Shown in pieces: positions 5,249 through 47,102 of a stretch of DNA of 64,000 bases. This DNA is from an uncultured Eubacteriales bacterium (lineage in GTDB: Bacteria; Bacillota; Clostridia; Christensenellales; Aristaeellaceae). Position 1 is the stretch's first letter; each line of letters starts with the position of its first letter. The stretch lies in contig OMZY01000022.1 of assembly GCA_900315675.1 (NCBI GenBank), positions 1 to 64,000 of the forward strand, given 5' to 3'. The notes under the pieces were generated by a model. That model was given only the letters and a program-made list of their open reading frames with translations, did not search any database and was not told the DNA's origin. The translations under genes and the position numbers were made by a program.

Positions 5249-5312
5249 AGTTGTTGACTTTCAACGCTTGTAGAGGATATATGTTCCTACCAAATGCAAA
5301 GGAGGTAGCCAT

Positions 5313-5543: not shown

Positions 5544-5554
5544 AACGACTGACT

Positions 5555-5592
5555 GGGAGGAAGCTGCCTGCGGGCGGCTTCTTCCCGTTTTT
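5555..5592 (+). terminator. Stem-loop with T-run between late genes
   Basis: Arms GGGAGGAAGCTGCC and GGCGGCTTCTTCCC (two G-U pairs) are followed by GTTTTTT. The T-run is directly followed by the GGAGG of the next gene, so it may reduce rather than stop transcription. Confidence 0.6.
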
Positions 5593-5602
5593 GGAGGTTG
5601 CC

Positions 5603-6301: not shown

Positions 6302-6320
6302 CGAACGGAGGTGACTTTCC

Positions 6321-9300
6321 ATGATCTGTGTTTATCCCGCCGACTGTACTGACTTCTCCACCAACGGCAACGGAACTCTTGCTCCTCTGTCTGCAGAGGT
6401 GACCGAAACCCTGAATGGAGAATATGAGCTGACGCTGGTGCATCCGATCGATGAAGCGGGCAAATGGCAGAGACTGGTGGAAGGCTGCATCCTCCGTGCT
6501 CCGGTGCCTGCGGCCACAACGCCCCGGGTGCACTTCTCCGCTCCGGGTGATGCCAGCGGCACAGAGATCTATCGGATTCATACGGACTTCTCTGAAGCGG
6601 AAACCCGTAAAGGAACTCTGAACCTGCGCTCCGGCCCCGGTCGAAATTATAAGGTGCTGGCTGCGTACAAAAACACACTGACAGTTCAGGTGATCGCTAA
6701 GACCAGCGCTGCTTGGTACGAAGTCACTGCTCCGGACGGGAAACACGGGTATATGGATACCACCTATCTGGTGTATGACCACACAGAGGGTTCCGCGTCC
6801 GAGGCTGTTTCCTCCGTAGTAGACGAGCGGCAGCTGAGGGATCAGCCTTTCCGCATTTACCGGATTGTTCCTGAGCTGGATAAGATTACAGTCTATGCGC
6901 GGCACGTGTTCTATGACCTGCTGGATAACATGATCAAATCCTACAAGCCTTCACCCTCTGCGGTGGGGGCTTCTGTCGTTCAGACGCTTTCTTCCTCCTG
7001 TTTGTCGGAGCATGACTTCACCTTCTATTCTGACCTGGACAGCACAGCAGAGGATGTGGAGTTCGAAAATGTGAATCCCGTGGATGCCCTGCTGGGTGAA
7101 GAAGGTGTCATAGAGAAATACGGCGGCGAGCTCACCCGGGACTGGTGGGATGTTTTTGTCGTGAAACGGGTCGGTCAGGACAGCAATGTGCAGATCCGGC
7201 AGGCAAAGAACCTGCTGGGCATTTCCTATGATGTTGACCTGACAGACGTCGTTACCCGGATCATGCCGACCGGTGAGGATGCAGATGGCAACGTGCTGTA
7301 CCTGCCTGAACTGTTTATAGACAGCCCGATCATCAGCACCTACACTCATCCGAAATGGATTCATCTGCCCGTTTCAGAAGCGAAAGAAAGTACTGATGAG
7401 GATGAGCCGAAGACCAAAGCGGACTGCTATACCCTGATGCGGAATGCAGCGCAGGAGCAGTTCGACGCGGGCTGTGACAGCCCGACTGTCACGCTGACAG
7501 TCAGTTTCATCAACTGTGCGGAGACAGAGGAATACAAGGAGTACGGCTTTCTGCAGAACATTTTTCTCGGGGATGCTGTTCGTGTGATTGCTCCCCGGGT
7601 GGGCGTATGGGTATCCATGCGGATGACGCAGTACACCTATGACTGCCTTACGAAGAAATACACCAACATGACCCTCGGCACCGTTGCGGATACTGTTGAG
7701 GGGAATGTGATCTCTGCCCGGCAGCTTCCTTCCGGGATCATTACCGGCAGTAAGCTGGCGATCAATTCTGTAGGCTCCGGTGCCCTGCAGAGTGGCTCTG
7801 TCGGTGCTGTTCAGATCCAGATGGCGGCAATCGAAACGGCCCATATTCAGGATGCGGCGATCAGTAAGGCCAAGATCGGTGAAGCGGCTGTCGGAACCGC
7901 TCAGATCGAAGACGCGGCAGTAACCAAGGCGAAAATTGGCCAGGCGGCTATCGGCACGGCCCAGATCGAAGATGCCGCTATTACTCAGGCTAAAATCGGC
8001 AGTGCGGCTATTGGAACGGCTCAGATCGAGGACGGAACCATTACCTCCGCCAAGATCGGCAATGGTGAAATACTGACTGCTCATATCCATGACGCAGCAA
8101 TCACAGGAGCCAAAATCGATCAGGCTGCAGTGGGCTCTGCCCACATTCAAAACGCTGCCGTGGACTCTGCACAGATCAAAGACGCGGCTATTACCAACGC
8201 GAAGATAGCAGGCGCGGCTGTTGGAACGGCAAATATTCAGGATGCCGCCATCGTTGCCGCAAAGATTCTCGACGGTGAGATTATAACAGCGAAGATTGCC
8301 TCACTGGCTGTGACTGAGGGTAAGATTGCCAATCTGGCTGTCACCACGGCGAAAATCGCAGAAGCGGCAATTACCAACGCCAAGATCGCCAATGCGGCTG
8401 TTGACACGGCACAGATCGCCTTGGGTGCGATTACGACAGCCCTGATTGCTCAGGGGGCCATTGGTACCGCTCAGATCGCAGATGCTTCCATTACCGCCGC
8501 AAAGGTTGTCTCTCTGAATGCTGATGTGATCACATCTGGCACACTGGCCACAGAGCGCCTGATCATCACCGGGGCCAACGGCCTGATCTATGAGATCAAT
8601 GCCGAAGCGTCCGGCCTTTCTGTACAGGAACTGTCTGATCAGAAATACCAGGAGCAGATCAACGGCACTGTTATTGTCGCCCGGTCAATTACGGCACAGC
8701 AGATCGCTGCCGCAACAATTACCGCCAATGAAATTCTGGCGGCGACCATTACTGGCGACAAGATTGCCGCTGCTACAATCGAAGGAAGCAATATCAAAGC
8801 CGGGACGATCACGACCACCAACATTTCCTCTGACTTCGGGCAAACCCTTGACCTGTCCAGCAACACTGGAATCAATCAGCGGGTACAGCAGATCTATACC
8901 GACATGAATGCCGCCATTGCGGCAGCGGGCGGTGGAGAAATCATTGTCGGAACCCAGGTCGCCAGTACCAGCGCATGGACTGGCGTTGCCTCTTTCTCCC
9001 AGCTTTCTGACGGTCAGCAGATCGTGTACTGGCTGCCGATAAGCTCGACTTCAACAGCTGTCACTCTGGAGCTGACACTTTCCGGTGGAGGGACAACGGG
9101 CGCGGTTCCTGTCTATTACAGCGGTGCTACTCGGCTGAGTACTCATTACCCCGCAGGTAATGCGATCCGGCTGATCTACAAAGTGAATGCCCCGATCAGC
9201 GGTGACACCTACACCGGCTGGTGGGCTGATGCGAACTATGACAGCGGCAACACCTATGACCGCATCAAACTGGGCAATTCTGTCGTCGTAAAGGAAAGCT

Positions 9301-10244
9301 TCGCTTGGGCCAAGCTCATCGTCGGTGATGACACAGGCTACTGGAATCTGGCTGGAGGAACCACTTTCAACATTGACCATCCCATTCTGTACCCGGCTGC
9401 CAATGGAACGGCGGGATACTACTTCTCCAATGCGTATATCTGCTATCCGACCGTCAGCCTGCGAACAGTAACGGACGACAGCTCTTTTGCGGTAACGGCC
9501 CGAAAGATGGTGTACCTGGTTGGTCACTTGAGCGGCAGACAGTTCACGGTACAGAGCACCAACTGGCTGACAACCAGCCCCTCTGACTCGACCGGAACGC
9601 TGACCTTCATTTCTCTTGGCTACATGTACAACACATACCAGATGTACCTGTACCCGGAGCATCCCATGTACATGTTCGTGGATGGAGAGTTCCGCAGTCT
9701 GAGTGAAGTGGCATACAACGCCAGTGTTGTGGCGAACGATGCTGCGGCAACATCGACGGAGAACGCTGCTTCTATCAACACCCTTCAGGATCAAATCTCC
9801 ATGAAGGTGTCCCAAACCACCTATGACAGTGACCATACCGCGCTCGAGCAGCGGCTATCCAATGTGGAGCAGACCGCTTCCGACTTCAAGGTGGAAATCA
9901 CAAAGAGCGTATCTGATCAGATCGCAGAAGTGGCTGGTGATGTAGATGGGCTGGCGGAGGACATCGCTGGCTTCAAGGATACGGTCACTGGGTACATGGA
10001 TTTCAACGGCGACTCTCTTGCCATCGGTGTGATGGGCAGCTCTTTCAAAACGGAAATTACCAACACAGAAATGGCTTTCACGGAGAATGGTGAAAAGGTC
10101 GCCTATGTCTCCAATAACGATATGTACATCACCCGTGCTCGGGTGACGGACACCCTGTCTGTCGGTACCGTCAGTAACGGGTACTTTGACTTCGTAACGC
10201 TTCCCGGCGGCCTTGCGCTCAAGTGGCGTGATGCGGCTTCGTAA
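6321..10244 (+). CDS. Phage tail endopeptidase / tip protein with SH3 insert and decapeptide repeats
   Basis: Tail-tip protein of the phage minor structural (Tal/prophage endopeptidase) type, 1,307 residues. The N-terminal tail domain ([20 protein letters not shown]..., L-NGEYELTL) is interrupted near residues 90-150 by a bacterial SH3-like domain with [18 protein letters not shown] and YMDTTYL, expected to bind cell wall. A second tail-domain part runs to about 465. Residues about 500-740 are a decapeptide repeat array. After that come repeated TITxxxI motifs, a beta-rich globular region and a C-terminal coiled coil ([19 protein letters not shown]). The start follows GGAGGTGACTTTCC. A peptidase active site was not identified, so enzymatic activity is family inference. 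Confidence 0.85.
7820..8520 (+). repeat. 30-bp-periodic coding repeat (decapeptide array) in tail-tip gene
   Basis: About 22 units of ten residues with consensus A-(A/I)-x-x-A-x-I-x-x-A; two units make the phrase [18 protein letters not shown]. Regular small residues and isoleucines every five positions suggest a beta-solenoid rod. The DNA copies are partly conserved (GGAACGGCTCAGATCGA recurs), so unit number may vary by recombination. Confidence 0.85.
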
Positions 10245-10255
10245 GGAGGAATTCC

Positions 10256-12433
10256 ATGGCTATCACCGCAACCTATACGGTCACTCTTTCTGCTTCGGAT
10301 AAAGACCATGGCAAAGGTGAATATGTATACGCCAGCATCGTGCGGACATCCCCGGCAACGCTGGTGCCGGAAGGACTATATGTTCAGAGCGCCACAATCA
10401 ATATGACCGGCACAACCTTCTGGTCTGGCTCCGGGTATAACCCTTATCTGGACTTTGGGGATATCGGGCGTGTGTATGTCTCCACTTCGGTGACGGATAA
10501 GACGGCAATCCCGATCACAACGCCGATAGATTTCAATCTGGATGAGCTGCTTTTGGTGGGCACAGTCCTCAATGACTTTTACATCTATGGATATAAGAGT
10601 TCAAACGGTAATGTCTGCACCTATGCCAGCAATAATGCGCAGTTCACGATTACCGCCACGATCGTCCAGCAATATGCGAAGTCCTCTGCCCGAGTTACAT
10701 CGAGCGTTGCGGCTGGCAGCGCATCCACTGTCACCTTTACCAACCCTTACCTGAACAACGTGTACCATATCGTGGACTGGCGCTTTGGCAGTTCGCTGGT
10801 GCATAGCGCGAGAACAAATATCGGTGACTCTTCTGTTTCGTACACCATCCCACTCAGCTGGCTGACGAACATCCCGAACGCAACATCCGGGACAGCGACG
10901 GTTGCCGTCACTACTTACTCATATGCAGGCTCAGAGCTGGGAACTGACACGTACAGCTTCACAATCACAGCCCCATCGACAGCGGTGCCGACAATCTCGC
11001 TGGCGGCAACGAGGATTGATAATTCTGTCCCATCCTCGTGGGGAATCTACGTGCAGGGTCAGAGCGGCATAAAGATTACAGCAACTGCTGCCGGGTACCA
11101 GGGAAGCACAGTCGCCAATTATACAATCTCCGGCGGTGCTACAGGAACGCAGACGTCAAATGTGTTCACCATCTCCAAGATTTATACCAGCGGTACAGTC
11201 ACCTACACAGTGAAGGTGACTGACTCCCGTGGACGGACAGCGACCGCCAGTGTGAGCATCTCTGTTGTAGCGTACTCAGCACCGTCTTTCTCCGCTACGG
11301 ACGCTTTCCGCTGTGTGGCTGCCGGGACGGCTTCTGATACCGGCACCTACATCTCAGCAAAGGCGACAGGCACTTATGCTTCCGTCAGCAACAAGAACAG
11401 CATGACGCTGAAGGTGCAGTATGCGCTCAGCACCTCCGGGGCCTACTCCACAGCGGTTACGCTGACCAACGGAACCGCATCAATCATCGGCAACGGCTCG
11501 ATCGACATTAACTACTCCTTCAAGGTGAAGTTCACCCTGTCGGATGCGTTTAGCACGATCGAGAAGGTGCTCAATGTCGGCACGGCGGCTTTCACGGTGT
11601 TCTTCCGTCAGGGCGGCAACGGTGTGGCCATAGGAAAGGTCTCTGAACGGGCCAATGCCGTGGAGATCAATCCTGACTGGGATATCTACCACGGTAACAC
11701 AAAGCTGAACGGCACCGTCCCAATCTCCCGGGGCGGCACTGGCGGGACAACAGCTGCGGCTGCCCGGAGTAATCTTGGTGCTGTGAACAAAGCGGGAGAT
11801 ACGATGACGGGCAACCTGACCATTCAGGGTTCCCTTTATCCATCCATGCTCCTACAGCCGACTTATAACGACACAACCAACCGGACAGTCTTCGAGGGCA
11901 GTTACGTTGGTGCGTCTTCCTTCGCCGCGTGGGAGGATAGCTCAGGCAATAACCGCCGGATGCTGGAAGTCCGCACGAAGGCCTATGCTTCCAGTCTGGA
12001 TAATGCCGTTATGGTCCGTGTTTGCGATAACGGCACATGGGGGAATTACCGCGTTTTCCATGCTGGTATGCCCTCTGGGGTTCCGATCGCCAACGGCGGC
12101 ACAGGCGCTACCACAGCAGCCAACGCCAGAAGCAACCTCGGCGCTAACAATGCGGGGAATCTCACCACAGGCACACTTCCGGCTGCCCGGCTGCCGTTCA
12201 AAGTCCAGTACGGGCAGACAAGCGTTACAGGCGTGTCCTGGACAACGGTCAGCCTGACAGCCGGGTTTACCGCTACGCCAACGATCGTGGTTTCCTATGC
12301 AGGGAACCCGTCCTCCAGTGGCATTGCCGTGCTGAAAACTGCCAACGAATCCAAGAGCAGCTTCCAGGTCTGTATGGCGGGCTCTTCTGGTTCTGGCACC
12401 CGCTATGTCAACTATATAGCTATCGGTGTGTGA
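10256..12433 (+). CDS. Tail fibre / baseplate protein, DUF859-like
   Basis: A 725-residue structural protein, probably part of the receptor-binding apparatus. The N-terminal 450 residues are Ser/Thr-rich beta repeats resembling DUF859-type minor structural proteins, followed by FRQGGNGVAIGKVSERANAVEIN, a phrase typical of that family. Two tail-fibre motifs (ISRGGTGGTTAAAARSNLG and IANGGTGATTAANARSNLG) mark the C-terminal shaft. The last about 75 residues look like a beta-rich tip domain. AAGGAGG lies just upstream of the ATG. Receptor binding is inference from position and motifs. Confidence 0.8.
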   Translation: MAITATYTVTLSASDKDHGKGEYVYASIVRTSPATLVPEGLYVQSATINMTGTTFWSGSGYNPYLDFGDIGRVYVSTSVTDKTAIPITTPIDFNLDELLLVGTVLNDFYIYGYKSSNGNVCTYASNNAQFTITATIVQQYAKSSARVTSSVAAGSASTVTFTNPYLNNVYHIVDWRFGSSLVHSARTNIGDSSVSYTIPLSWLTNIPNATSGTATVAVTTYSYAGSELGTDTYSFTITAPSTAVPTISLAATRIDNSVPSSWGIYVQGQSGIKITATAAGYQGSTVANYTISGGATGTQTSNVFTISKIYTSGTVTYTVKVTDSRGRTATASVSISVVAYSAPSFSATDAFRCVAAGTASDTGTYISAKATGTYASVSNKNSMTLKVQYALSTSGAYSTAVTLTNGTASIIGNGSIDINYSFKVKFTLSDAFSTIEKVLNVGTAAFTVFFRQGGNGVAIGKVSERANAVEINPDWDIYHGNTKLNGTVPISRGGTGGTTAAAARSNLGAVNKAGDTMTGNLTIQGSLYPSMLLQPTYNDTTNRTVFEGSYVGASSFAAWEDSSGNNRRMLEVRTKAYASSLDNAVMVRVCDNGTWGNYRVFHAGMPSGVPIANGGTGATTAANARSNLGANNAGNLTTGTLPAARLPFKVQYGQTSVTGVSWTTVSLTAGFTATPTIVVSYAGNPSSSGIAVLKTANESKSSFQVCMAGSSGSGTRYVNYIAIGV

Positions 12434-12440
12434 TGAATAG

Positions 12441-12465
12441 CCTCCTCCACCCGGGGAGGTTTTTT
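12441..12465 (+). terminator. Terminator after tail fibre gene
   Basis: CCTCC(ACCC)GGGGAGG stem followed by TTTTTT, eight bases after the fibre stop codon and ahead of the holin ribosome site. Confidence 0.65.
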
Positions 12466-12507
12466 CATACTCATTTCTACCTGACAATAAAAAAGGAGGT
12501 TTCTAAA

Positions 12508-12972
12508 ATGCGCGATTTTTCTATTGATCTGCTCTGGGCAAAAATTCAGACGGCGATCACCGCTATTGGCGGTTGGATTGGCTGGTTCCTGGGAGGTGTG
12601 GACGGTATGCTCATTGCCCTGATTGTGCTCATGGCGCTGGATTATATCTCTGGCGTTATGTGCGCCATCGAGGATAAGAAACTGTCCAGTGCCATTGGCT
12701 TCAAAGGCATCGCCAAGAAGGTATTGATTCTGATGCTGGTCGGTGTGGCTAACATTCTTGATGTGAATGTAGTCGGCGGCGGGGCTATCCTGCGGGGTGC
12801 TGTCATCTGCTTTTATCTGAGCAATGAGGGCCTGAGCCTGCTGGAAAACGCTGCTTATCTTGGCCTGCCGGTACCGGATAAGCTGAAAAGCATTCTGGCG
12901 CAGCTCCATGACCGCAGCGAGAAAGAAGGCACCGACGATACCGACAAGACCGATGAGGGTGGAGGCGAATAA
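12508..12972 (+). CDS. Phage holin, toxin-secretion/lysis holin family
   Basis: Makes membrane lesions that let the endolysin reach the wall. The 154-residue product has hydrophobic segments at about 15-55 (GGWIGWFLGGVDGMLIALIVLMAL), the DYISGVMCA phrase of the TcdE/phage_holin_4 family, a conserved SSAIGFKGIAKK segment, further hydrophobic stretches (VLILMLVGVANILD) and a charged tail (EKEGTDDTDKTDEGGGE). The start follows AAAAAGGAGGTTTCTAAA. The endolysin gene is next, the classic lysis cassette. Confidence 0.92.
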   Translation: MRDFSIDLLWAKIQTAITAIGGWIGWFLGGVDGMLIALIVLMALDYISGVMCAIEDKKLSSAIGFKGIAKKVLILMLVGVANILDVNVVGGGAILRGAVICFYLSNEGLSLLENAAYLGLPVPDKLKSILAQLHDRSEKEGTDDTDKTDEGGGE

Positions 12973-12987
12973 CCTCCGCCCCGTTTT
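12956..12987 (+). terminator. Stem-loop with T-run between holin and endolysin
   Basis: Arms GGGTGGAGG and CCTCCGCCC pair with one G-U and are followed by GTTTTT; the holin stop codon lies in the loop. The endolysin ribosome site follows at once. Confidence 0.55.
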
Positions 12988-13008
12988 TCTGATGGGGAGG
13001 CGAATCCG

Positions 13009-13785
13009 ATGCTTGATGTTAACAAACTGATCGCTTCTGTAGAAGAGTGCCTTGGCTGGCCGTATGTCAGCCCGGGCACCAATGACGCCCGGGGCATCGA
13101 CTGCTCCGGGCTTTTCGTGAAGGCTTTCCGGGATCAGGGGGCTTCCATCTACCATGGCAGTAACACGATCTACCGAAAATACTGCTCTGAAAAGGGCAAA
13201 CTGACGAGCGTCAGCCAACTGCAGCCCGGCATGGCGGTATTCAAGTGGAATGCGAATACCCCGGAAAAGTTCAATGATGGTCTTGGAGACTTCCAGCATA
13301 TCGGTCTGGTCGTGAGCGTGAATCCGCTCAGGATTATCCATGCGTCCTCTGCGGTTGGATGCGTCACGACAGACACGAAGCTGGGCAAATGGGCCTACTG
13401 GGGCTGGCTGAAGGATGTGGCCAAAGGCACGGTTATTCCTACAGAACCCGACGATGATCATGGAGGAGATGAGGAACCTATGACCGAAACGCAGTATGCT
13501 ACCGTAATTGCCGATTCTGGTTCAACAGTGAATATGCGCACCAAGGCGAAGACCAGCGCAGCGTTGGTGGAACGTGTCCCTATCGGAGCACGGGTAGAGC
13601 TGTTGGGAACTGTTGGCTCCTGGACTAAGGTGAAGTTCGGTTCCCGGATCGGGTATATGATGACAAAGTTCCTGACTGCGGAAGAGACGCTGGAACCGGA
13701 TGAGGATCTTTCCATCGAAGAAAGAGTGAAGCGTCTGGAGCGCAGAGTGGCTCAGCTTGAAGCAAAAGACGGTGCGGTTGGTTGA
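13009..13785 (+). CDS. Endolysin: NlpC/P60 peptidase with SH3 domain
   Basis: Predicted to cut peptidoglycan peptides at lysis. Residues 1-150 are an NlpC/P60 domain with the catalytic cysteine in GIDCSGLFV (Cys about 32), histidine in FQHIGLV and a second histidine in RIIHASS. After an acidic linker (EPDDDHGGDEEP) residues 160-225 form an SH3_3-type wall-binding domain (STVNMRTKAKTSAALVERVPIG). The C-terminal 30 residues are a short coiled coil (SIEERVKRLERRVAQLEAK), which might oligomerise the enzyme. The ATG follows GGGGAGG. It has no signal peptide, consistent with holin-dependent release. Confidence 0.92.
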   Translation: MLDVNKLIASVEECLGWPYVSPGTNDARGIDCSGLFVKAFRDQGASIYHGSNTIYRKYCSEKGKLTSVSQLQPGMAVFKWNANTPEKFNDGLGDFQHIGLVVSVNPLRIIHASSAVGCVTTDTKLGKWAYWGWLKDVAKGTVIPTEPDDDHGGDEEPMTETQYATVIADSGSTVNMRTKAKTSAALVERVPIGARVELLGTVGSWTKVKFGSRIGYMMTKFLTAEETLEPDEDLSIEERVKRLERRVAQLEAKDGAVG

Positions 13786-22037: not shown

Positions 22038-23093
22038 TCAATCCGCAATCACTTTTATGTTAGTCGGCAGTTCATGCTTCCAGTCCATGCCGATCGGGAT
22101 CGGTGGGATCCATTTCACAATCGGCTTTCTTTCGGGGAACTTTGCGTCCCGGGGGCCAGTCCAGTAGGTATGCCAATGCGCTGCCCTGACATGCGGGCGC
22201 GGACTGGCATGAGAGCCCGGTTCAGCGTTCTCGTTCCTCTGATAGCCTGAATTCCCGTTTTTGTATCTTCGGATCACATTGGAAATCCGCACTCCTACAT
22301 CCCAGACCCTTGGCTCTTCGGGCGGCCTTACGCGCCCGGAGAGCGTTCTTCTTTTCTGGGGATGCTCGATCTCCGGCAGGTCAGGTTCTTCGCTGCAAAG
22401 GTACAGGAGCAGCTGCAGCATCGCGGTAAGGGTGACTTTGTATTCCTCCCGCCCACCAATGTAACGGTTTGGATGATGTGGACTCATGAACATATCGTCC
22501 ACCTGATCAACGCGGGCCATCGCATCCAGAACTGTTCCGGTTCCAAAGGGAATGGCCAGCATTTTCGGTTCTGCTTTCCCTTCCAGAAACAGGGCAAGCT
22601 GCAGATCCGTGTCCCGGCTGTACAGGTTGTAGTCCAGGTGTGCAATGAATCCGTACATCCGGTGCCGTTCGTAGCTGAGCCCGGGCGTCTCGATGTAAAC
22701 CGCCCATTCCGGTAGATGAAACAGGCAGTCCATCGGCACATTTCCTGTAATGGGCTGGTTGGTCAGCGCCTCATAGATCTCCGGCGCGAAGCGGTAAATG
22801 CCCTTGCTGCATCGCCAGATGTAGGTGGTGCCCAGCGTCATCAGCTCCTCCATGTGCGTCAGGTAGAAAAGCTCTCCGTACCGGTCTGTCAGCAGCATGA
22901 AGGGAAAAAGCGTCGGCATGATGCACCAGTCCGGGATGTTCTTCAGCATCTCAGTGCCGCCTGCTTTGAGACGAATCATGCTGGCAGGATCAGTGTAGGC
23001 TTTGTGCAGTTCTGTCCATAAATTTGGGTACTTGCGGTTAACTTCCCGTATCCATCGGTCCGGCGGGTATGGTGACAATTCCTTTCTGGCCAT
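22038..23093 (-). CDS. AcrVA2-like anti-CRISPR protein
   Basis: A 351-residue protein that resembles Moraxella AcrVA2 along its length. Matching landmarks in order: IYRFAPEIYEAL then CLFHLPEWAVYIE (AcrVA2 has a near-identical LPDWCVYVD block), LLLYLCSEEPDLP, WDVGVRISNVIRRYKNG, and the signature RPHVRAAHWHTYWTG followed by VKWIPPIPI. AcrVA2 blocks Cas12a production by recognising the nascent Cas12a N-terminus and causing loss of its mRNA. Whether this homologue does so is inference; family members are widespread and not all tested. ATG at 23093 follows AAAGGAGGG. It is the only leftward gene in 13.9-38 kb, facing a divergent HTH gene. Confidence 0.82.
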   Translation of the reverse strand: MARKELSPYPPDRWIREVNRKYPNLWTELHKAYTDPASMIRLKAGGTEMLKNIPDWCIMPTLFPFMLLTDRYGELFYLTHMEELMTLGTTYIWRCSKGIYRFAPEIYEALTNQPITGNVPMDCLFHLPEWAVYIETPGLSYERHRMYGFIAHLDYNLYSRDTDLQLALFLEGKAEPKMLAIPFGTGTVLDAMARVDQVDDMFMSPHHPNRYIGGREEYKVTLTAMLQLLLYLCSEEPDLPEIEHPQKRRTLSGRVRPPEEPRVWDVGVRISNVIRRYKNGNSGYQRNENAEPGSHASPRPHVRAAHWHTYWTGPRDAKFPERKPIVKWIPPIPIGMDWKHELPTNIKVIAD

Positions 23094-23168
23094 GGGCTGC
23101 CCTCCTTTCAGGTCAGACAGCATATATTGCTCAGAATCCAAGGAAAATCAAGCACTTTCGACTTGTGT

Positions 23169-23188
23169 TTACCTCGTTTCAGAGGTAA
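23169..23188. promoter_or_regulatory. Palindromic operator candidate between AcrVA2-like and HTH genes
   Basis: TTACCTC (23169-23175), six-base spacer, GAGGTAA (23182-23188), a perfect inverted repeat in the 130-bp divergent region. It falls in the spacer of a weak rightward promoter (TTGTGT, 17 bases, TAACAT). A leftward candidate is TTGATT with AATATA or TATATG. The HTH product is the likely binder. Confidence 0.55.
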
Positions 23189-23222
23189 CATGCCACACAC
23201 CAAAGCCAGAGGAGGCATGCCG

Positions 23223-23468
23223 ATGAACCGGGAAGCAAAGATTCTCCGTGAACGAAGGTTGGAGCTGGGTATCTCCCAGCAGGCTCTTGCCACTGAAGTC
23301 GGGATGGAAGTTCGCCAGTACCAGCGCTTTGAATATGGTCAGCAGCTTATTTCACGCAGCAGTATGAAACAGGGTCTCCGGATCTGCGCGGCACTGGAGT
23401 TGGATCCTTTTGAACTGGTCTTTGAAGATGGTGTGGATGTTGCCGTCCCAAAGAAACGTCCCAAATAA
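23223..23468 (+). CDS. XRE-family HTH regulator, possible anti-CRISPR-associated (Aca-like)
   Basis: An 81-residue Cro/CI-type repressor: ILRERRLELGISQQALATEVG followed by MEVRQYQRFEYGQQLISRS, a standard five-helix HTH, then CAALELDPFELVFED. Start at 23223 gives seven-base spacing from GGAGG, better than the ATG at 23217. It diverges from the AcrVA2-like gene across a palindrome, the usual arrangement of an autoregulating Aca protein that limits acr expression. It does not visibly belong to a named Aca family, so that role is inference. Confidence 0.82.
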   Translation: MNREAKILRERRLELGISQQALATEVGMEVRQYQRFEYGQQLISRSSMKQGLRICAALELDPFELVFEDGVDVAVPKKRPK

Positions 23469-23655: not shown

Positions 23656-25833
23656 ATGAACGATGTGCAAAAGGCGGCCCGGGAACGTGCGGCGAAGCAG
23701 GGAAAGCCCATCGGCTCCAGTTTCGAGACGGAACGCCAGCGGGAAAAGCGGGCTGTCTTCAAACAGATCGAAGGCAGTAACGGTGCGAACATCCACAAGA
23801 TCGCTGCCACGGCATCCGCGCCGGAAGGTGACGAAAGCAAGCCCCTGCGCGTCGCGGCCTATTGCCGGGTGTCTACAGATGATCTGGATCAGGCGGTTTC
23901 GATTGCTCTGCAGATCGCGGAGTACAAAAAGAAGATCAAAGCCAATGAGAACTGGATCTATGTGGGCACTTATGTAGACGACGGCTTCTCCGGCACGAAC
24001 ACAGATCACAGGCAGGGCTTTCAAAAGCTGATGCAGGATGCCATGGACGGAAAGATCGACCTGATTATCACCAAGGCAGTCTCCCGCTTTGCCCGTAACC
24101 TGCTGGACTGCATCAAATGGGTAGAAGCGCTGCAGAACCACGATCCACCCATTCGGGTTTTCTTCGAACAGGAGAATCTGGATACCATGTCCCAGACCAG
24201 CGGAATCATCCTGTTCGTGCTGGCTATGGTCGCAGAAGAAGAAAGCCATATGAAAAGTGAAGCAATCCTGCTTTCCCTCGAATGGCGCTTCAGCAGAGGA
24301 CGGTTCCTCACGCCCCGGCTCTTCGGCTTTGACAAGGTAGAGGTGCCTGACGGATACGGCGGGCACAAGAAGGTTCTGCAGATCAATGAATCGGAGGCCA
24401 ATGTCGTCCGTTGGATGTATTCCGCACTCTTATCCGGAATGACGCCGGAAGAAATCGCAAGCATGCTCACGGAACTGGCCATCCCGACAGGGGGCCGAAA
24501 GAAGGACGGATCCTTCAATACGCATTGGACAAAGAGCACTGTGGTTTCCATCATGCGGAATGAAAAGCACTGTGGTGACGTGCTGGCCAGAAAGACCTAC
24601 ACCAAATCCTTCAAGGATCATAAGGCGCGGAAGAATACCGGGCAGAAGAACAAGTACTATCAGGCAAACCATCACGATGCCATCGTCAGCAGGACGGTTT
24701 GGAATGCAGCGCAGCGCATTTTGAACAGCCGACGGTATGGCCATGAGGGTATGTACCTTCCAATGCGGATCATTGACAGCGGTTCCCTGACTGGATTCAT
24801 CTCCATGAACCGTTCCTGGGCAGGCTTTGACGCAGAGGATTATTACCGGGCCAGTCAAATTGCCATGGGCCTGCTGGACGGTGAGCTTGAGGCAAATCTG
24901 GAGCAGGAATATCTGCCAGAGAGCGGGCACAAGATGGGCGGCCTGATGGACGATCACGGAATCGCGCAGATTGCCCGTGACCTGACCGCAGCAGAACAGG
25001 AGATGAAGAATGAATTGGAGGGTAAAAAGAAAGACGCTGAAAGTGAAAGTGACAGAGAGGAAATCGTGAAGACGTTTCAGGTGGTCAGCGGGGATATGTT
25101 CTCCCGGATCCATGAACCGGTTGTCCGGATCACAACTTCGGCGATCGCGTTTAACAAATCCTGCGTTGACAAGATGGCCTGCCAGTATGCCGAACTGCTG
25201 TTAAATCCGGTGGAACGGATGCTTGTGCTTCGCCCCTGCGCGGTTGACCATCCGAACGCGATCCCATGGAACGCCAAGGGCTGTGGAGCCAGTTCCCTCT
25301 GCAAGGTTCTTTTCGCCACCATGGGCTGGGAGGACGATTACTCCTATCGGGTACCATGTCAGCCGCTGGAAGGCCCGGATGCAGAAATCGTGCTGGTCTT
25401 TGATCTGGACAACTATGTGGGCCATGCCATCAACAAGACGGAAGAAGTTATCGTCGCCAGAAAACAGTTGGAGATGGAAACGGACAACAGCGGAAAAAGC
25501 TATTTCTATCCGCCGGAAGACGATGACGAACCTCAGGAAATCAAGGATATGGAAGAGAAGTTCCAGAAAGCGGTGGAGGTCAATAAAAAGATCTTCGGTG
25601 TTCCTGCCTTCGAGCATACATCCAACATGCGGGCATTCTCGCAGGGAGAGACCTGGGATATGATGACGCCTGCAAGGCCGCTGGATATTGTCCATACAGT
25701 GGACAGCGATACCGTAGACAATCTGTTTGAACAGATCATGAATTCACCGCCAACCATCCCGATGGAAAATGAAAACTCTGTGCTGCAGGCGCATGTGGTA
25801 ACTTCACAGAAACCGAATAACGAAAGCCGATGA
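23656..25833 (+). CDS. Large serine recombinase fused to a C-terminal domain shared with neighbouring genes
   Basis: A 725-residue recombinase. After 65 basic residues comes the resolvase domain with catalytic Ser73 in AAYCRVSTDD and the helper motif KAVSRFARN, then the recombinase DNA-binding domain (about 220-365: GFDKVEVPDGYGGHKKVL, MRNEKHCGDVLARKTY). The usual C-terminal zinc ribbon with paired cysteines is missing. Instead residues about 485-600 hold a domain (AIAFNKSCVDKM, AELLLNPVERMLVLRPC, MGWEDDYSYRVPCQP, LVFDLDNYVG) found again in the genes at 26684, 27483 and 30056. ATG at 23656 follows AAGGAGG. It is the first gene of a six-gene rightward block. Confidence 0.85.
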   Translation: MNDVQKAARERAAKQGKPIGSSFETERQREKRAVFKQIEGSNGANIHKIAATASAPEGDESKPLRVAAYCRVSTDDLDQAVSIALQIAEYKKKIKANENWIYVGTYVDDGFSGTNTDHRQGFQKLMQDAMDGKIDLIITKAVSRFARNLLDCIKWVEALQNHDPPIRVFFEQENLDTMSQTSGIILFVLAMVAEEESHMKSEAILLSLEWRFSRGRFLTPRLFGFDKVEVPDGYGGHKKVLQINESEANVVRWMYSALLSGMTPEEIASMLTELAIPTGGRKKDGSFNTHWTKSTVVSIMRNEKHCGDVLARKTYTKSFKDHKARKNTGQKNKYYQANHHDAIVSRTVWNAAQRILNSRRYGHEGMYLPMRIIDSGSLTGFISMNRSWAGFDAEDYYRASQIAMGLLDGELEANLEQEYLPESGHKMGGLMDDHGIAQIARDLTAAEQEMKNELEGKKKDAESESDREEIVKTFQVVSGDMFSRIHEPVVRITTSAIAFNKSCVDKMACQYAELLLNPVERMLVLRPCAVDHPNAIPWNAKGCGASSLCKVLFATMGWEDDYSYRVPCQPLEGPDAEIVLVFDLDNYVGHAINKTEEVIVARKQLEMETDNSGKSYFYPPEDDDEPQEIKDMEEKFQKAVEVNKKIFGVPAFEHTSNMRAFSQGETWDMMTPARPLDIVHTVDSDTVDNLFEQIMNSPPTIPMENENSVLQAHVVTSQKPNNESR

Positions 25834-25877
25834 TCACCCTTGATCATCGGACACTATTTTTTTCAGGAGGTTTGAAG

Positions 25878-26636
25878 ATGTACATATCCAGAAACCCGGC
25901 GAAGAGCAGACCACTCTCCGCCAACGTGAAGCGGCTGATGCGTCTATCCCGCGCAGCCCCCAAGAATGGGAATGTGGTCAGAGAGAAGCGGCATTTTACC
26001 GCGAAGGATCTGGCCTGCTGCGGTAAACAGGGTGATCTGTTCATGGAGGCTGCGTCCATGGGCTTCTCCATGGAGGATTTTGCCCCGCTGTTCATGACAA
26101 GCCAGCTGGCCGGGGTATTCGATGCCAGCTTCTCCAGCTCAGCGGTAATGGAAAACGAGAATCTGGCGAACCTGCTGCAGATCCCGGTTTTGCTGAAGAG
26201 CCCGCAGCTGATCGTGGAAACTCTCTACTGGATCGACGATATCATTTCCAAATCCGGAGAGGGTGAAAACAAGAGCCTGGCGCTGACAGAAGCATACAAA
26301 GCGGAAAAACTGAAGCTGCCGCAGGCGCTGGCAGAGCTCCCTGCAGAACCGAACCGGAACGTGGATGATCTGGCTTATGCCTACTGGCTCGGATTCATAT
26401 ACCGCTGCGAATGCCTACTGCATGAGGAATCTAGCCGCATGGTATACGGAGCCTTCAGTGAAAAAATCATGCATGCAGCATACGATCAGCTGCTTAAAAC
26501 TCCGATGGCAAATGAGAATCTGGTGGATATCGCTGAAGCGATATGCGCCAATCTGGACAAGCTGCTGATCGAAAAGATCTGGCCTGCGGAAAAGAAAGAG
26601 CAGCGGAAACGGCAGGCCGCCGAACTCAAACGATAG
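25878..26636 (+). CDS. Unrecognised protein of the recombinase block
   Basis: A 252-residue, mostly helical soluble protein with no family I can name. A basic N-terminus (SANVKRLMRLSRAAPKNG) is followed by DLACCGKQGDLFMEAASMGFSMEDFAPLFMTSQLAGVFD, a region with a helical repeat feel, and a Lys/Arg-rich C-terminus (EKKEQRKRQAAELKR). Start at 25878 follows CAGGAGG. It lies 44 bases after the recombinase and 47 bases before the next gene, evenly spaced with the block. Confidence 0.7.
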   Translation: MYISRNPAKSRPLSANVKRLMRLSRAAPKNGNVVREKRHFTAKDLACCGKQGDLFMEAASMGFSMEDFAPLFMTSQLAGVFDASFSSSAVMENENLANLLQIPVLLKSPQLIVETLYWIDDIISKSGEGENKSLALTEAYKAEKLKLPQALAELPAEPNRNVDDLAYAYWLGFIYRCECLLHEESSRMVYGAFSEKIMHAAYDQLLKTPMANENLVDIAEAICANLDKLLIEKIWPAEKKEQRKRQAAELKR

Positions 26637-26683
26637 CGGTTCATCAGGATCCAATGTGCCGCAAAACAAAGGAGGAATGAAAA

Positions 26684-27469
26684 ATGGATCAGTGGAACAA
26701 GCCCGGGTATCGTCCCGGAAACAACTACTACAACCCCAACGGTCAGCAGAACACCATGGGCGGTTATCAGCGGCCTTATCCGGCCCAGCCTGCCCAGCAG
26801 CCGCCTTCAGTGCCCCAGCCCACGCGATTATCCCGGGAAGAGCAGATGGAAGCTAAACGGCTGGCTGAACAGGCCAGGTTCAGCTTTGACGGCTATCAGG
26901 TCGTCCGGCGGGAATTCATTTCCCATAACTTTGATCCCGCCATGACCATCCGGGGAAACAGCATCACCTTCAATAATTCCTGTATCAGCAAACTGGAGAA
27001 TGCCACATATGTGCAGTTCCTGATTAATCCGGCAGAGCAGCGTCTTCTGATCCGTCCCTGCGAAGAGGGTGCGCGCGATGCTGTCCGCTGGTGCATTGTC
27101 CGGGAGGACAAGCGGAAGAGCCGCCAGATTACCTGCACCATTTTCATTGAAAAACTGCGGGAGATGATGGGCTGGGACGATCTGTACCGTTACCGCCTGC
27201 AGGGCATGAGGATCGATCACGACGGAGAACAGCTATACCTGTTTGACCTGAGCTCCAATGAATGCTTCCTGCCGCAGAAGCGAGATCCGGATACTGGAAA
27301 GCTCATACGCCCGAAGCCCATCCTGCCTGCGGAGTGGCGCGAAACCTTTGGCATGGATGTAAAAGAACACGAAGCGTCCACACAGGTGGATCTGACACAG
27401 GGATTCGTTTCGGCGGATCTTTCCCAGCAGGAAGAAGAACTTCCTCTGATTACAGCCCAGATTGAATGA
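26684..27469 (+). CDS. Stand-alone copy of the recombinase C-terminal domain (copy B)
   Basis: A 261-residue protein. Residues 1-45 are Asn/Gln/Pro/Tyr-rich and disordered (GYRPGNNYYNPNGQQN). Residues about 70-195 match the C-terminal domain of the upstream recombinase: SITFNNSCISKLENATYVQ, FLINPAEQRLLIRPC, MMGWDDLYRYRLQGMRID, LYLFDLSSNECFLP. The tail includes PAEWRETFGMDVKEHEASTQ. Function unknown; the arrangement suggests a DNA- or partner-binding module working with the recombinase. AAAGGAGGAATGAAAA precedes the ATG. Confidence 0.75.
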   Translation: MDQWNKPGYRPGNNYYNPNGQQNTMGGYQRPYPAQPAQQPPSVPQPTRLSREEQMEAKRLAEQARFSFDGYQVVRREFISHNFDPAMTIRGNSITFNNSCISKLENATYVQFLINPAEQRLLIRPCEEGARDAVRWCIVREDKRKSRQITCTIFIEKLREMMGWDDLYRYRLQGMRIDHDGEQLYLFDLSSNECFLPQKRDPDTGKLIRPKPILPAEWRETFGMDVKEHEASTQVDLTQGFVSADLSQQEEELPLITAQIE

Positions 27470-27482
27470 TGGAGGTGACAGT

Positions 27483-27833
27483 ATGAACTCGCTGCTTTTA
27501 ACACTGAATTTGAAGGAGGACACAATTCTGCTCAACAAAGGAATTCTGGATATTCTCGATCATCCCCGGCAGGTACAGATCATGATTAATGAAGAACTCT
27601 GCTCCCTGCTCCTGCGGGCCTGCACCGTAGATGACTTGCAGGCGGTGGTTGTTCCAGAGGGACAGGTGATGCAGTTTGAAATCGGCGGGCGCTCCCTGCT
27701 GAAGAAGATCCGGAAGATTGCCGGGTGGGTCAATGATGAACCACGGGTCTGCACGGGAGAGTACATCCCGACGCATCAGGCAATCCGCTTTGATCTGCTG
27801 AATGCCATGCCCACGACCATGCCCAATCAATAA
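27483..27833 (+). CDS. Stand-alone copy of the recombinase C-terminal domain (copy C)
   Basis: A 116-residue minimal version of the same domain: DTILLNKGILDILDHPRQVQ, IMINEELCSLLLRACTVDDLQ, KKIRKIAGWVNDEPRVCTG, AIRFDLLNAM. Order and spacing of the hydrophobic blocks match copies A, B and D. Start at 27483 follows GATGGAGGTGACAGT; it begins 13 bases after copy B ends. No enzymatic residues seen. Confidence 0.72.
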   Translation: MNSLLLTLNLKEDTILLNKGILDILDHPRQVQIMINEELCSLLLRACTVDDLQAVVVPEGQVMQFEIGGRSLLKKIRKIAGWVNDEPRVCTGEYIPTHQAIRFDLLNAMPTTMPNQ

Positions 27834-27854: not shown

Positions 27855-30029
27855 ATGAACCGTGAGCTATTATTCAAGCATCTGGAAGACCACTACATTC
27901 CCAAAAGAGAGATGATCAGCCGCATCCCCCTGGGAGTACAGCCAGACGAATTCTGGCAGGATGTCCTGAATCGGAGACGTGCCAGAAGTATCAGCCTGCC
28001 GCTGCATAATCCCCGGGGAATTCCATACTGGTATGTAGTCACGGGAAAGATGATCTCCGCCAGCGAACAGATCGTCAGTGAAATGATGGACAATGAGACG
28101 GAGTTTGATCCCTACAAGGATACCCCGGCGGCATCGTCTCTGGAGGAGAGTTTCTTTACCAGCTATGTGGAGGGCTCCCAGATTTCTCTGCAGGACGCCA
28201 TGGAATTCCTGCAGGGTGAACGGGAACCACAGGAACCGGAAGAGCAGATGATCATCAACAACAGGAATGCGCTGAGCTTTACCGGAGCCAACCTCTTCCG
28301 TCCCGTGGATGAAGAGTACATTCGGACGCTGGCTTATATCCTGACCGAAAACATGGACGGCGGCGGACAGGAGTATCGGCTGGACGACTGCCCGCCAATC
28401 CCCTCCATGATGGGAATCCCATACGAACTCCCAATGGCTGCCGCCCTGCAGGACAGGGTGAATGAGATCTGTATGCTGATCCATGATCCGACCATTCATC
28501 CACTGATAAAATCAGGCATAGCACAGGCATGGGTGCTTGTGACGCGGCCATTCCCTGAGGGCAATGAACGCCTTGGACGATTGCTATCGCAGGTGATTCT
28601 TTTCCGAGCTGGATACGTTTTCTTCTCCGAAATCAGCCTGTCCAGTCTGATCGCCCGCACCAGCTATGCCTACTTCAACGCCATCACAAACATTCTGCTG
28701 CCGGAGAACGGCGCTGATCTGACCTATTTTCTGGAATACTACATGACCTTGCTGGCCAAGGCGGTTGATGAACGACACCTGCGGATCCGGCAACGGGCTG
28801 AACAGACACTTCAGGCAGAACAGGAAATGGCGCGTCAGCCGCTGACACCTCCGCCGGAGCAAACACAGATGAATATCAATGTTTATGACGAAAAAAACTC
28901 CGAGACGGAAGAAAGTGCCCTTCCGGGGGAATCCGAGCCGGATAAAGGAGGTGATGAAACAATTAATCTTGCCATCGTCAAAAGGAATTTGAAGCAGTTG
29001 AAAGAAGGACCGAGTGAACGTATTACCAACTGCGCAAAGATCCTGCTCCAGTATCTGGACAACGGCATGCTAAACTTTACCGTGCAGGATATAGCGCACT
29101 CAATGAACATTGATGTAGATACGGCAGGAAACGTAATCACGCAGTTGAAAGCTAAAGGCATTCTTCAAAGTAGCCAGCGTAAAGGCAGACTGATGGTTTA
29201 TTCCTTTTGTGACGAAGAAATAAACACAGATGGAATCAGACCAAGGAGGAGCTTTCGGAGAACCCTGCTCCGGTTAAGTGAGAATGCAAATTCTGCCATC
29301 GGCAAAACTGCAGGTGTACTTCTCAAGTACCTGACCAGCGGAAGATTCACATTCCTTAGTTCAGACCTTCAGGCTGATCTTGGCTTTACGAATGAGCAGA
29401 CCTACAAAATGTGCTATCAGTTGAAAGATAAGGGTCTCGTCACATTGATAAGCCGTAATGGAGAGCACCCCAAGTACGCCCTCGCTTTCTCTGAAAATCC
29501 AATCCTTAGCACACCACCCCAAAGACCCAAAATAGAATATAGTCAGGCCTTCATGGAGAAACTGAAACAGCTGGGTGCCTCCACCAGATCTTCTAAGGAC
29601 CGGAGGATTGCTTCGATGCTGATGGAGTTCCTTTCAATCGGGATGATCACATTCCAGGATTATAAAAATGCCCAGTATGAATCCAGTTGGCAAAAGGATA
29701 TGAGCCTTGCCGAACAGATGGGACTTGTGAAGAAGCAGAATCCCGGATGCTACAGCATTTTGCGGGATATTCGTCCAGGGCCGCCTGAGTTAAAGCCAGC
29801 ACAGAAAGAAGTTGTCACGGCCATCTACAACACGTTCGGTGACGAGGTGTTCTCTTCAGAGATGGTTATTGCAACACTGGATTATTCAAAGGCTCACGCC
29901 TGCGCGATCCTGCATCAGTTCACGCTTCTGAAAATCCTCGACTGCGATACCAAATCTCCTGACAAATTTATGTACCAGTTCCGGGTCAATCCCCGTGAAA
30001 ACCCTGAATGCTTCACAGGAGCTGCCTGA
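27855..30029 (+). CDS. Degenerate Fic-domain protein with tandem winged-helix repeats
   Basis: A 724-residue protein. The N-terminal half is a Fic fold: an inhibitory-helix motif T-S-Y-V-E106-G107 is intact, but the core motif, normally H-x-F-x-(D/E)-G-N-G-R-x-x-R, reads RPFPEGNERLGR (231-242), so the catalytic histidine is Arg231 and the last glycine Glu238. AMP transfer is therefore unlikely. Residues about 375-715 contain four winged-helix-like repeats (for example LLQYLDNGMLNFTVQDIAHSM and LLKYLTSGRFTFLSSDLQAD). GAGAGGAGG precedes the ATG. It looks like a DNA-binding scaffold or regulator of the recombinase block. Confidence 0.78.
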   Translation: MNRELLFKHLEDHYIPKREMISRIPLGVQPDEFWQDVLNRRRARSISLPLHNPRGIPYWYVVTGKMISASEQIVSEMMDNETEFDPYKDTPAASSLEESFFTSYVEGSQISLQDAMEFLQGEREPQEPEEQMIINNRNALSFTGANLFRPVDEEYIRTLAYILTENMDGGGQEYRLDDCPPIPSMMGIPYELPMAAALQDRVNEICMLIHDPTIHPLIKSGIAQAWVLVTRPFPEGNERLGRLLSQVILFRAGYVFFSEISLSSLIARTSYAYFNAITNILLPENGADLTYFLEYYMTLLAKAVDERHLRIRQRAEQTLQAEQEMARQPLTPPPEQTQMNINVYDEKNSETEESALPGESEPDKGGDETINLAIVKRNLKQLKEGPSERITNCAKILLQYLDNGMLNFTVQDIAHSMNIDVDTAGNVITQLKAKGILQSSQRKGRLMVYSFCDEEINTDGIRPRRSFRRTLLRLSENANSAIGKTAGVLLKYLTSGRFTFLSSDLQADLGFTNEQTYKMCYQLKDKGLVTLISRNGEHPKYALAFSENPILSTPPQRPKIEYSQAFMEKLKQLGASTRSSKDRRIASMLMEFLSIGMITFQDYKNAQYESSWQKDMSLAEQMGLVKKQNPGCYSILRDIRPGPPELKPAQKEVVTAIYNTFGDEVFSSEMVIATLDYSKAHACAILHQFTLLKILDCDTKSPDKFMYQFRVNPRENPECFTGAA

Positions 30030-30720: not shown

Positions 30721-31074
30721 ATGACAAACGCGGAGAAGCAGAGAATCATCCGGCTACGTGAACAGGGACTGGGCTATACGCAGATCGCGAATCGAATGGG
30801 ATTATCCAAGAGTACGGTGTCCACCTTCTGCAAGCGGAACGGGCTGGCCGAAGAGCCGAAAGAAAAGCCTCAGAAGTCAAAGAATTACTTGCTATCTGGG
30901 GCCACCCATGGTAATACGTCCACTGACCTTCCGCAGCCTACCACGTTGGTGGCAGATCCCATGGAACTGGACATCACCTGCAAGGTAACGGTTTCCTATG
31001 CGGATGAGCCTGACGAAACGGCGGTTGCGGACGTGCTCGAGATTCTGAGAAACGCAGAGAGGAGGAGTTCCTGA
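30721..31074 (+). CDS. Small HTH protein coupled to serine recombinase
   Basis: A 117-residue protein with an N-terminal helix-turn-helix of resolvase/sigma-like type (RIIRLREQGLGYTQIANRMG, LSKSTVSTFCKRNGL), a Pro/Lys linker and an acidic C-terminal part (DITCKVTVSYADEPDETA). Its stop codon overlaps the next start (TGATG), so it is translated with the recombinase and may act as its directionality or regulatory partner; this is inference from position. Confidence 0.78.
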   Translation: MTNAEKQRIIRLREQGLGYTQIANRMGLSKSTVSTFCKRNGLAEEPKEKPQKSKNYLLSGATHGNTSTDLPQPTTLVADPMELDITCKVTVSYADEPDETAVADVLEILRNAERRSS

Positions 31075-32648
31075 TGAAACGCGTCATTTGCCTTTACCGC
31101 GTTTCAACGCTCGGTCAGGTGGATCATGACGACATTCCCATGCAGAAGACCGCCTGCCGGGAGTACGCCGCCCGGCACCCGGACTGGAAGATTGTCGATG
31201 AGATTTCTGAAAAAGGCGTCTCCGGTTACAAGATCAGCACAAACGAACGGGACGCCATTCTGGAAATCAAGAACCGGGCCGTGCAGCATCAGTTTGATGT
31301 CCTGCTGGTCTTCATGTTCGACCGGATCGGCAGACGCGATGACGAAACGCCGTTTGTGGTGCAGTGGTTCGTGCAGCAGGGCATCGAGGTCTGGAGCGCC
31401 CGGGAGGGCGAACAGCGCTTTGACACCCATGTGGACAAGCTGATGAACTACATCCGGTTTTGGCAGGCTTCCGGCGAAAGTGAAAAGACTGCCATCCGCG
31501 TCCGGACAAAACACTCCCAGATGGTTCAGGAGTGCCAGTGGCGCGGCGGACTGGTCGCCTACGGTTATCACCTTGTTCAGAAGGGCCGCACAAACAAAAA
31601 GAACCAGCCTGTGCCGGATCTGGAGATCGATGAAGACGAAGCCAAAATCGTCCGCGAGATCTACCACCTGCTGGTGGACGAGGGCTACGGCACAAACCGG
31701 GTAGCCAAGTACCTGAATGCGAAAGGGATCAAGACGAAACGCGGCACCACTCTTTGGAGAGGAACTTCCATTCGTGCGCTGATCGACAACCCGATCTACA
31801 AAGGAATCCTTCGCTTCGGCCCGGAACGGTCCCAGCCCTTTAAGCACCTGATCATCATCGACGAGGCCAGGTACGACAAGTGTCTGGAGATCGTTAAAGG
31901 CCGCGCCAAGGGGTCCACGAAGGATCAGGATTCCCCGAAGACGTCAGCCTCCCGGTCACTTCTGACAGGGCTGCTCTACTGTGCGGACTGCGGCAGCAAG
32001 CTCTGCTTCACCCACAACACCACGCGGCGGCATCTCGCCAGCGGTGACATTCGGCTTCATGAGCGTGATCTTTACCGCTGTTACCGGAAGATCTCAGCAC
32101 CGGACAGCTGCAACGGGCAGAGCGCCTACCATGTGGAGCCAATCATCGAAGCGGTGGAGACAAAGGTCAGAGAGTTCCTTTCCCAGATCGGTGAGATCCC
32201 CGAAGAAGACCTGCTCAAGCTGGCAGCCAGCAGGAAACAGGAGGTTTGCGAGGTAGCCCTGAAGCAGGCGCGAAGCGATTACGAAAACGCTAAGCGTCAG
32301 GTCGACGCACTCGAGGATCAGGCCATAAAAGCCCTGACAGGTGAAAGCCAGTTGGACCTGAACATCATCAACAGCATGCTGGTGAAGCACCGGGCTAAAA
32401 TGACGGAAGCGTTGGACGCCATGGAAGAAGCAGAAGGGCGGATGAACGCGGAAAAGCAAAACGCCCGGAATGTAAAAGCGGAGATTGACGAAATCCGGAG
32501 TTGGGTGGATCAGTATGCCGAAAGCAGCGTAGAGGCGAAGCACATGGTGATTGCCCGGCTGATTGACAGGATTGAAGTTGGAAGTGGATACGAGGTTCAC
32601 ATTCAGTTCAGGGTTTCAGTAGCTCAACTGGTCAGAAAGACCGCGTGA
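31074..32648 (+). CDS. Large serine recombinase, candidate phage integrase
   Basis: A 524-residue site-specific recombinase with all expected parts: catalytic Ser11 in CLYRVSTLG, FMFDRIGRRDDE in the catalytic domain, recombinase domain (about 160-250: GGLVAYGYHLV, RALIDNPIYKGILR), a zinc ribbon with cysteine pairs (LLYCADCGSKLCF, RCYRKISAPDSC) and a coiled-coil (about 380-470) inserted before the end. This architecture integrates many clostridial phages and ICEs. Start at 31074 follows AGGAGGAG. A terminator follows within 20 bases; an attachment site would be expected near one end, but I could not identify one. Confidence 0.9.
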   Translation: MKRVICLYRVSTLGQVDHDDIPMQKTACREYAARHPDWKIVDEISEKGVSGYKISTNERDAILEIKNRAVQHQFDVLLVFMFDRIGRRDDETPFVVQWFVQQGIEVWSAREGEQRFDTHVDKLMNYIRFWQASGESEKTAIRVRTKHSQMVQECQWRGGLVAYGYHLVQKGRTNKKNQPVPDLEIDEDEAKIVREIYHLLVDEGYGTNRVAKYLNAKGIKTKRGTTLWRGTSIRALIDNPIYKGILRFGPERSQPFKHLIIIDEARYDKCLEIVKGRAKGSTKDQDSPKTSASRSLLTGLLYCADCGSKLCFTHNTTRRHLASGDIRLHERDLYRCYRKISAPDSCNGQSAYHVEPIIEAVETKVREFLSQIGEIPEEDLLKLAASRKQEVCEVALKQARSDYENAKRQVDALEDQAIKALTGESQLDLNIINSMLVKHRAKMTEALDAMEEAEGRMNAEKQNARNVKAEIDEIRSWVDQYAESSVEAKHMVIARLIDRIEVGSGYEVHIQFRVSVAQLVRKTA

Positions 32649-44897: not shown

Positions 44898-44923
44898 AGC
44901 CGATGCGGAGAGGAGGCTGCACC

Positions 44924-47036: not shown

Positions 47037-47102
47037 GCTTTCTACACGCAACCATAAAGTGAGGATTTAATTCTGGCAGTATGGACAAGTAAGGAGAAGG
47101 CA

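Follow-up and report, generated by a model that had tools for sequence, protein, structure and literature searches.

A prophage-borne member of the AcrVA2/FinQ protein family in an uncultured Eubacteriales bacterium

AcrVA2 from Moraxella (PDB 7ci1 and 7ci2) acts on Cas12a. In excerpts of PMC13131331 it is reported to recognise a nascent LSKT peptide and so to trigger translation-dependent decay of the cas12a mRNA, and nascent-peptide-guided decay by this protein is also described in a portion of the conference notes PMC12908700. FinQ is encoded by IncI plasmids, between excA and trbA on a conjugative plasmid, and is reported to lower the tra transcripts of F. An excerpt of PMC8744291, citing Ham and Skurray (1989), reports that FinQ ends transcripts of the tra operon at many sites in a Rho-independent manner, and its mechanism is described there only as the early ending of transcripts. 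Two relatives that each lower one specific mRNA suggest a common mechanism; against this, FinQ has been described as a factor acting at the level of transcription and not of mRNA decay. A full-text search gave 37 papers naming FinQ or AcrVA2, and none of the 36 listed, ranked with those matching more of the terms first, names both proteins, the primary papers of both being outside its scope.

The window analysed here, a stretch of 64,000 nucleotides, forms the first part of a 74-kb contig from an uncultured Eubacteriales bacterium whose genome of 3.6 Mb is assembled in 57 contigs. A gene for a 351-aa protein (P0001) was located on the minus strand at 22041..23093, with the ATG at 23093, the stop codon at 22038-22040 and an intact frame. 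The sequence AAAGGAGG, seen directly 7 bases ahead of the ATG, is its ribosome-binding site. The blocks LPEWAVYIE, LCSEEPDLP, VRISNVIRRYKNG and RPHVRAAHWHTYWTG, on which the earlier note had based its proposal of AcrVA2 homology, were all found in this frame, and the similarity to AcrVA2 proved to be far beyond chance. The protein matched the AcrVA2 crystal sequence 7ci1_A with E=1.4e-14 (phmmer against the PDB), the next match, to a ryanodine receptor, being weak (0.013). A family profile built from 11 members matched positions 7-333 with E=7.1e-63. An AlphaFold2 model, obtained from an alignment of 79 sequences, had a mean pLDDT of 86.6 and a pTM of 0.87. When this model was compared with the PDB by Foldseek, the AcrVA2 fold was recovered: three AcrVA2 chains (E between 1.3e-14 and 2.4e-13) alone passed the cut-off of E≤0.001, and the next match stood at 0.47. 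The TM-scores to AcrVA2 were moderate, 0.56-0.68 (0.64-0.68 when normalised to the target), with an rmsd of about 6 Å. The agreement of phmmer, the family profile and AlphaFold2/Foldseek establishes the relation to AcrVA2. The blocks LPxWxxY, VG and RPHxRxxHWH are common to both proteins, and the AcrVA2 homologue of Moraxella phage Mcat5, about 30% identical to the 351-aa protein (89/293 aligned positions), is phage-borne as well. The protein was also matched by phrog_6160 (E=3.9e-49), a PHROG that carries no function label, and by nothing in Pfam, NCBIfam or PADLOC at E≤0.1.

The 351-aa protein is thus certainly a remote relative of AcrVA2, yet it is not specially close to it. Its score was 96.5 bits to FinQ versus 57.7 bits to the Mcat5 homologue, and it shares with FinQ the family, the motif and the fold at 28% identity (93/331). 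When FinQ itself was used as the query, AcrVA2 7ci1 was found in the PDB with E=4.5e-17. Furthermore, a Pantoea protein 77% identical to FinQ, folded with the family alignment (pLDDT 79.4), gave AcrVA2 as its sole PDB match at E≤0.001 (5.7e-12; the next was 0.74). FinQ is therefore a member of the AcrVA2 family, and the 351-aa protein is equally a relative of FinQ. The prophage gene is a new member of an already known protein family. FinQ and the 351-aa protein differ in setting, since FinQ belongs to a conjugative plasmid whereas the gene described here is not plasmid-borne and lies in a prophage. As a side observation, the annotated start of finQ (259 aa) lies 102 codons downstream of the start indicated by homology; read from there, the frame gives 361 aa, over whose full length the Pantoea relative aligns.

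The family is widespread. With the 351-aa protein as the query, tblastn against plasmids returned 622 records, and most of the 60 matches listed were annotated FinQ; 577 of the 622 records were predicted conjugative, a tally dominated by near-identical FinQ plasmids (461 of the 564 records found with FinQ as the query were at least 99% identical). Against phages, 46 records were obtained, from Erwinia (29), Moraxella (5), Leptospira (4), Lactobacillus (2), Pasteurella (2) and Dickeya (2), together with one further phage and Shewanella phage Y11, whose protein carries the annotation AcrVA2. Family members were sparse within the class, phrog_6160 matching in 3 of 391 genomes, the own genome counted. 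Relatives 70% and 65% identical were present in a goat-jejunum 'Clostridia' MAG and an 'uncultured Clostridiales' MAG. A tree was calculated from the family proteins after duplicates, fragments and rows shorter than 295 aa had been removed (156 left) and those more than 90% identical had been taken out (139 left); the pattern scans for family loci had kept 79 of 129 confirmed loci in one case and 80 of 128 in the other. In this tree the 351-aa protein grouped, on a long stem, with four phage or rumen relatives, and this clade was nested in a 19-row group of Bacillota, phage or viral-contig rows. The rows beyond that group stem from many phyla. AcrVA2 and FinQ fell outside it on very long branches, with an unsure placement, and because of these long branches away from the clade a shared function of AcrVA2, FinQ and the 351-aa protein is not guaranteed.

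Several individual loci of the family were recorded in passing. In Moraxella phage Mcat5 (positions 2791-4464 of the extracted locus) the family gene AKI27191.1 lies two genes ahead of AKI27193.1, which is given as AcrIF14 in a table of PMC7556299. On the Thioflavicoccus plasmid pTHIMO01 (1-5038 of the locus) the family member stands two genes after brxL, with a PglZ-domain gene ahead, and so adjoins a BREX system. In a Bacillota MAG (L038:6001-7677, with the same protein as L013) a single 559-aa frame joins the family domain to a Phage_integrase domain (E=3.9e-30). Three loci (L148, L031 and L086) each contained a second, separate family match.

The best conserved motif of the family, RPHxRxxHWH, occupies residues 299-308 (22170..22199, minus strand). 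H301, R303 and H306 were nearly invariant, being kept in 138/138, 138/139 and 139/139 aligned rows, and the full HxRxxHxH was absent from 4 of the 139; most of these rows had been selected by patterns including RxHxRxxHW or LPxW, so that this conservation is partly selected. Eight rows obtained by plain tblastn likewise kept the three residues. Identity to the 351-aa protein was 25/73 (AcrVA2) and 36/92 (FinQ) in the C-terminal part, versus 10/72 and 12/74 in the N-terminal part. The C-terminal part is thus conserved and the N-terminal part hardly so, which would fit a common effector end joined to a changing recognition end.

On this basis, the reading preferred here, with a probability of about 0.5, is that the gene encodes an accessory (moron-type) prophage protein of the AcrVA2/FinQ family that silences an mRNA in the manner of AcrVA2, its target most likely not being Cas12a. 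The protein would bind a particular N-terminal peptide as it emerges from the ribosome, as reported for AcrVA2, and this binding would bring about the loss of the encoding mRNA. The conserved C-terminal HxRxxHxH region may carry out the step common to the family, by contacting the ribosome or by causing RNA decay, and target choice would fall to the N-terminal and middle parts, which change fast. The most plausible targets are a competing mobile element and a defence gene of the host. A wider proposal, which we hold at somewhat less than even odds, is that AcrVA2, FinQ and the 351-aa protein form one widespread plasmid and phage family of nascent-chain-guided mRNA silencers, in which AcrVA2 would have learned Cas12a, FinQ the tra genes and the prophage member a third kind of gene; the 'transcription termination' ascribed to FinQ would then be co-translational mRNA decay. 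The AcrVA2/FinQ frame matters more than the single member, which is one of many. If AcrVA2 and FinQ do share a mechanism, the old puzzle of plasmid exclusion and the decay step that AcrVA2 leaves unexplained merge into a single question that can be tested, and caution is advised with anti-Cas12a annotations of such genes, that of Shewanella phage Y11 for example.

The targets that could be proposed from the closest relatives and from the host were weighed against each other. The earlier note had predicted type V-A (Cas12a) immunity in the hosts of this phage, a prediction that found no support: the NCBIfam model of Cas12a gave no match in the own genome, in any of 61 genomes (the own genome, 36 of the genus and 24 of the order) or in any of 75 family-carrying genomes (0/50 and 0/25), many of the searched genomes being incomplete MAGs and a Cas12a-free lysogen not excluding Cas12a in other hosts. 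The 75 carriers were taken from 79 genome loci, four (L031, L032, L080 and L095) being left out as their titles name an organism already represented; L023, one of the carriers, and L002 of genome G013 are a single record, so that this genome also counts among the 61. The search did match one of the 391 class genomes, with 1187 bits, and this is its only positive control, because none of the 14 control genomes gave a Cas12a match in any search. An anti-Cas12a role in the own host is therefore not supported. That the protein is a true anti-Cas12a factor shielding the phage in other hosts with type V-A systems would agree with the homology and fold, with a phage host range that may reach beyond the own host and with the one Cas12a genome in the class; nevertheless, it is very unlikely, given the Cas12a-free genomes and carriers, the non-CRISPR roles that FinQ brings to the family, and the long branch on which AcrVA2 stands, apart from the clade of the 351-aa protein and unsure in its place. 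A family named for an anti-CRISPR thus includes FinQ and has 75 carrier genomes with 0 Cas12a matches, and 'AcrVA2-like' is a correct statement of homology but is wrong if taken to promise anti-Cas12a function.

The host genome does encode a type I-E system, with cas3, cse1, cas7, cas5, cas6e and an array of 36 repeats, and Cas1 was matched in 25 of 50 carriers (50 of the 75 being counted for it), so blocking of this system through silencing of a cas mRNA was considered. It appears highly doubtful. No match longer than 18 bases was obtained between the 35 spacers and the window or the other loci compared, and hence no self-targeting calls for protection of the prophage. At E≤0.001 Cas1 matched in 11 of the 61 genomes of the own host and its relatives, and in 10 of these the match exceeded the cut-off; within the genus it is rare (2/37), being found in genome G007 and in the own genome, where it is truncated to 105 aa and under the cut-off. 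At this site (8847-11322 of the locus on own-genome contig C36) the shortened cas1e runs into the 36-repeat array, and cas2 was not recognised among the ORFs there; either the adaptation module has degenerated or the contig was misassembled here. FinQ-like exclusion of rival mobile elements, by silencing a transcript of conjugation or of a competing phage, is a tentative possibility in keeping with the membership of FinQ and with the predicted conjugative nature of most matching plasmid records; against it, no rival element or target gene was identified, and that tally consists mostly of near-identical FinQ plasmids. Such exclusion is a special case of the mRNA-silencing explanation, with the mechanism in common.

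The gene lies in a prophage, as indicated by genes for phage tail proteins (minor tail and tail-endopeptidase), DUF859, a holin and an NlpC/P60 endolysin at 5..13785 (plus strand). By gene content the prophage extends from the left edge of the window to about 32.6 kb; no attachment sites were found. Cargo genes (metallo-beta-lactamase fold, rhomboid, WYL, ion channel and SAP domain) stand between the lysis genes and the AcrVA2/FinQ-family gene. To the right, all on the plus strand, follow a large serine recombinase with Resolvase and Recombinase domains (23656..25833), three small cassette genes starting at 25830, 26684 and 27462 (25830..27833), a Fic-domain protein with weaker winged-helix matches (27855..30029) and a second serine recombinase with a zinc ribbon (31074..32648). 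Between the family gene and the large recombinase, an XRE-type HTH gene of 81 aa, also on the plus strand, was confirmed at 23223..23468, divergent from the family gene as the earlier note had stated; when read from an upstream ATG, as 92 aa, it matched Pfam HTH_3 with E=5.3e-7.

That note had seen in this pair the layout of an acr-aca locus, in which the HTH protein would be an Aca-type repressor of the AcrVA2-like gene acting on the palindrome TTACCTC-N6-GAGGTAA. The palindrome is indeed present at 23169..23188, on neither strand in particular, in the intergenic stretch between the two divergent genes; on its own it is not beyond chance. When the 129 intergenic bases were shuffled 2000 times with dinucleotides preserved, perfect arms of at least 7 with a spacer of 0-12 arose in 147 cases, and with up to 3 mismatches the palindrome itself occurred twice in the window versus 1.70 times expected. 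As an independent proof of an operator it was rejected. The divergent layout and palindrome do recur in part in the phage stretches L003 and L004 (99.95% identical to each other), where a 74% identical AcrVA2-like protein lies opposite an 86% identical HTH protein and the outer palindrome half, TTACC-N10-GGTAA, is kept. As judged by eye, a weak TTGYGT/TAACAT promoter directed toward the HTH gene can be read in the window and in both these stretches, with the palindrome inside its 17-base spacer; a promoter scan with a stricter rule found none. In L022 the AcrVA2-like gene (62-63% identical) and then the HTH gene (55%) are adjacent on one strand, and the palindrome between them, CTACGAC-N6-GTCGTAG, has other letters and an equal 7-6-7 shape. 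Placed after the AcrVA2-like gene and ahead of the HTH gene, it would serve the HTH promoter, which tells against the acr-aca reading; in the window and in L003 the palindrome occupies the intergenic space shared by both genes, and in L022 it is upstream of the HTH gene alone. For a link speaks that the two genes are neighbours in the window, in L003/L004 and in L022.

Further loci were compared. A scan for the 26684-type cassette gene yielded 65 loci, with the HTH gene in 9 of them (one matching only weakly, at the edge of a contig) and the AcrVA2-like gene in 5, which represent three phages. The HTH gene stood directly 5' of the serine recombinase in 8/8 viral loci with a 26684-type gene at least 55% identical; these loci amount to five phage kinds (L199=L200, L201, L202, L203 and L204/L205/L206). 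The AcrVA2-like gene was absent from the L201 and L202 stretches examined, and L204 stops short of the place concerned. The HTH gene of L201 and L202 is followed by the recombinase and faces another gene with an HTH_3 domain, and no palindrome with arms of at least 6 was found upstream of it. In L205 and L206 (100% identical) the AcrVA2-like gene is at the far end of the cassette, about 7 kb from the HTH gene. As the HTH gene stays with the recombinase where the AcrVA2-like gene is missing or distant, it is part of the recombinase cassette, and its product probably regulates both the HTH gene itself and the cassette; its Aca role was rejected on these comparative grounds, and the pair is unlikely to be an acr-aca locus.

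The position of the AcrVA2-like gene itself varies: it adjoins the HTH gene in either orientation, or lies behind the Fic gene (L104/L105, L023 and L024). The gene does stand, as had been proposed, between two rightward blocks, the lysis and cargo genes on the left and the recombinase cassette on the right. An independent insertion as the sole reading was rejected; since the gene changes place around the cassette, 'variable accessory slot' is the better phrase, and this slot lies next to the HTH gene. When the Fic-gene product alone was used to scan viral contigs, no relative was returned; L003 and L022 do encode relatives (58% and 49% identical), and, as these were missed, exact-word pattern scans undercount.

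Two further observations concern the neighbourhood. Within 23656-27833, the product of the 26684 gene resembles a stretch of the large recombinase and is itself resembled by the product of the 27462 gene; both are satellite copies of part of the recombinase, which the related phages compared have retained. Beyond the right end of the prophage, AAA/SMC-type ATPase genes surround a CTD6 protein of the ABC-three-component kind at 44903-50379, a candidate defence system.
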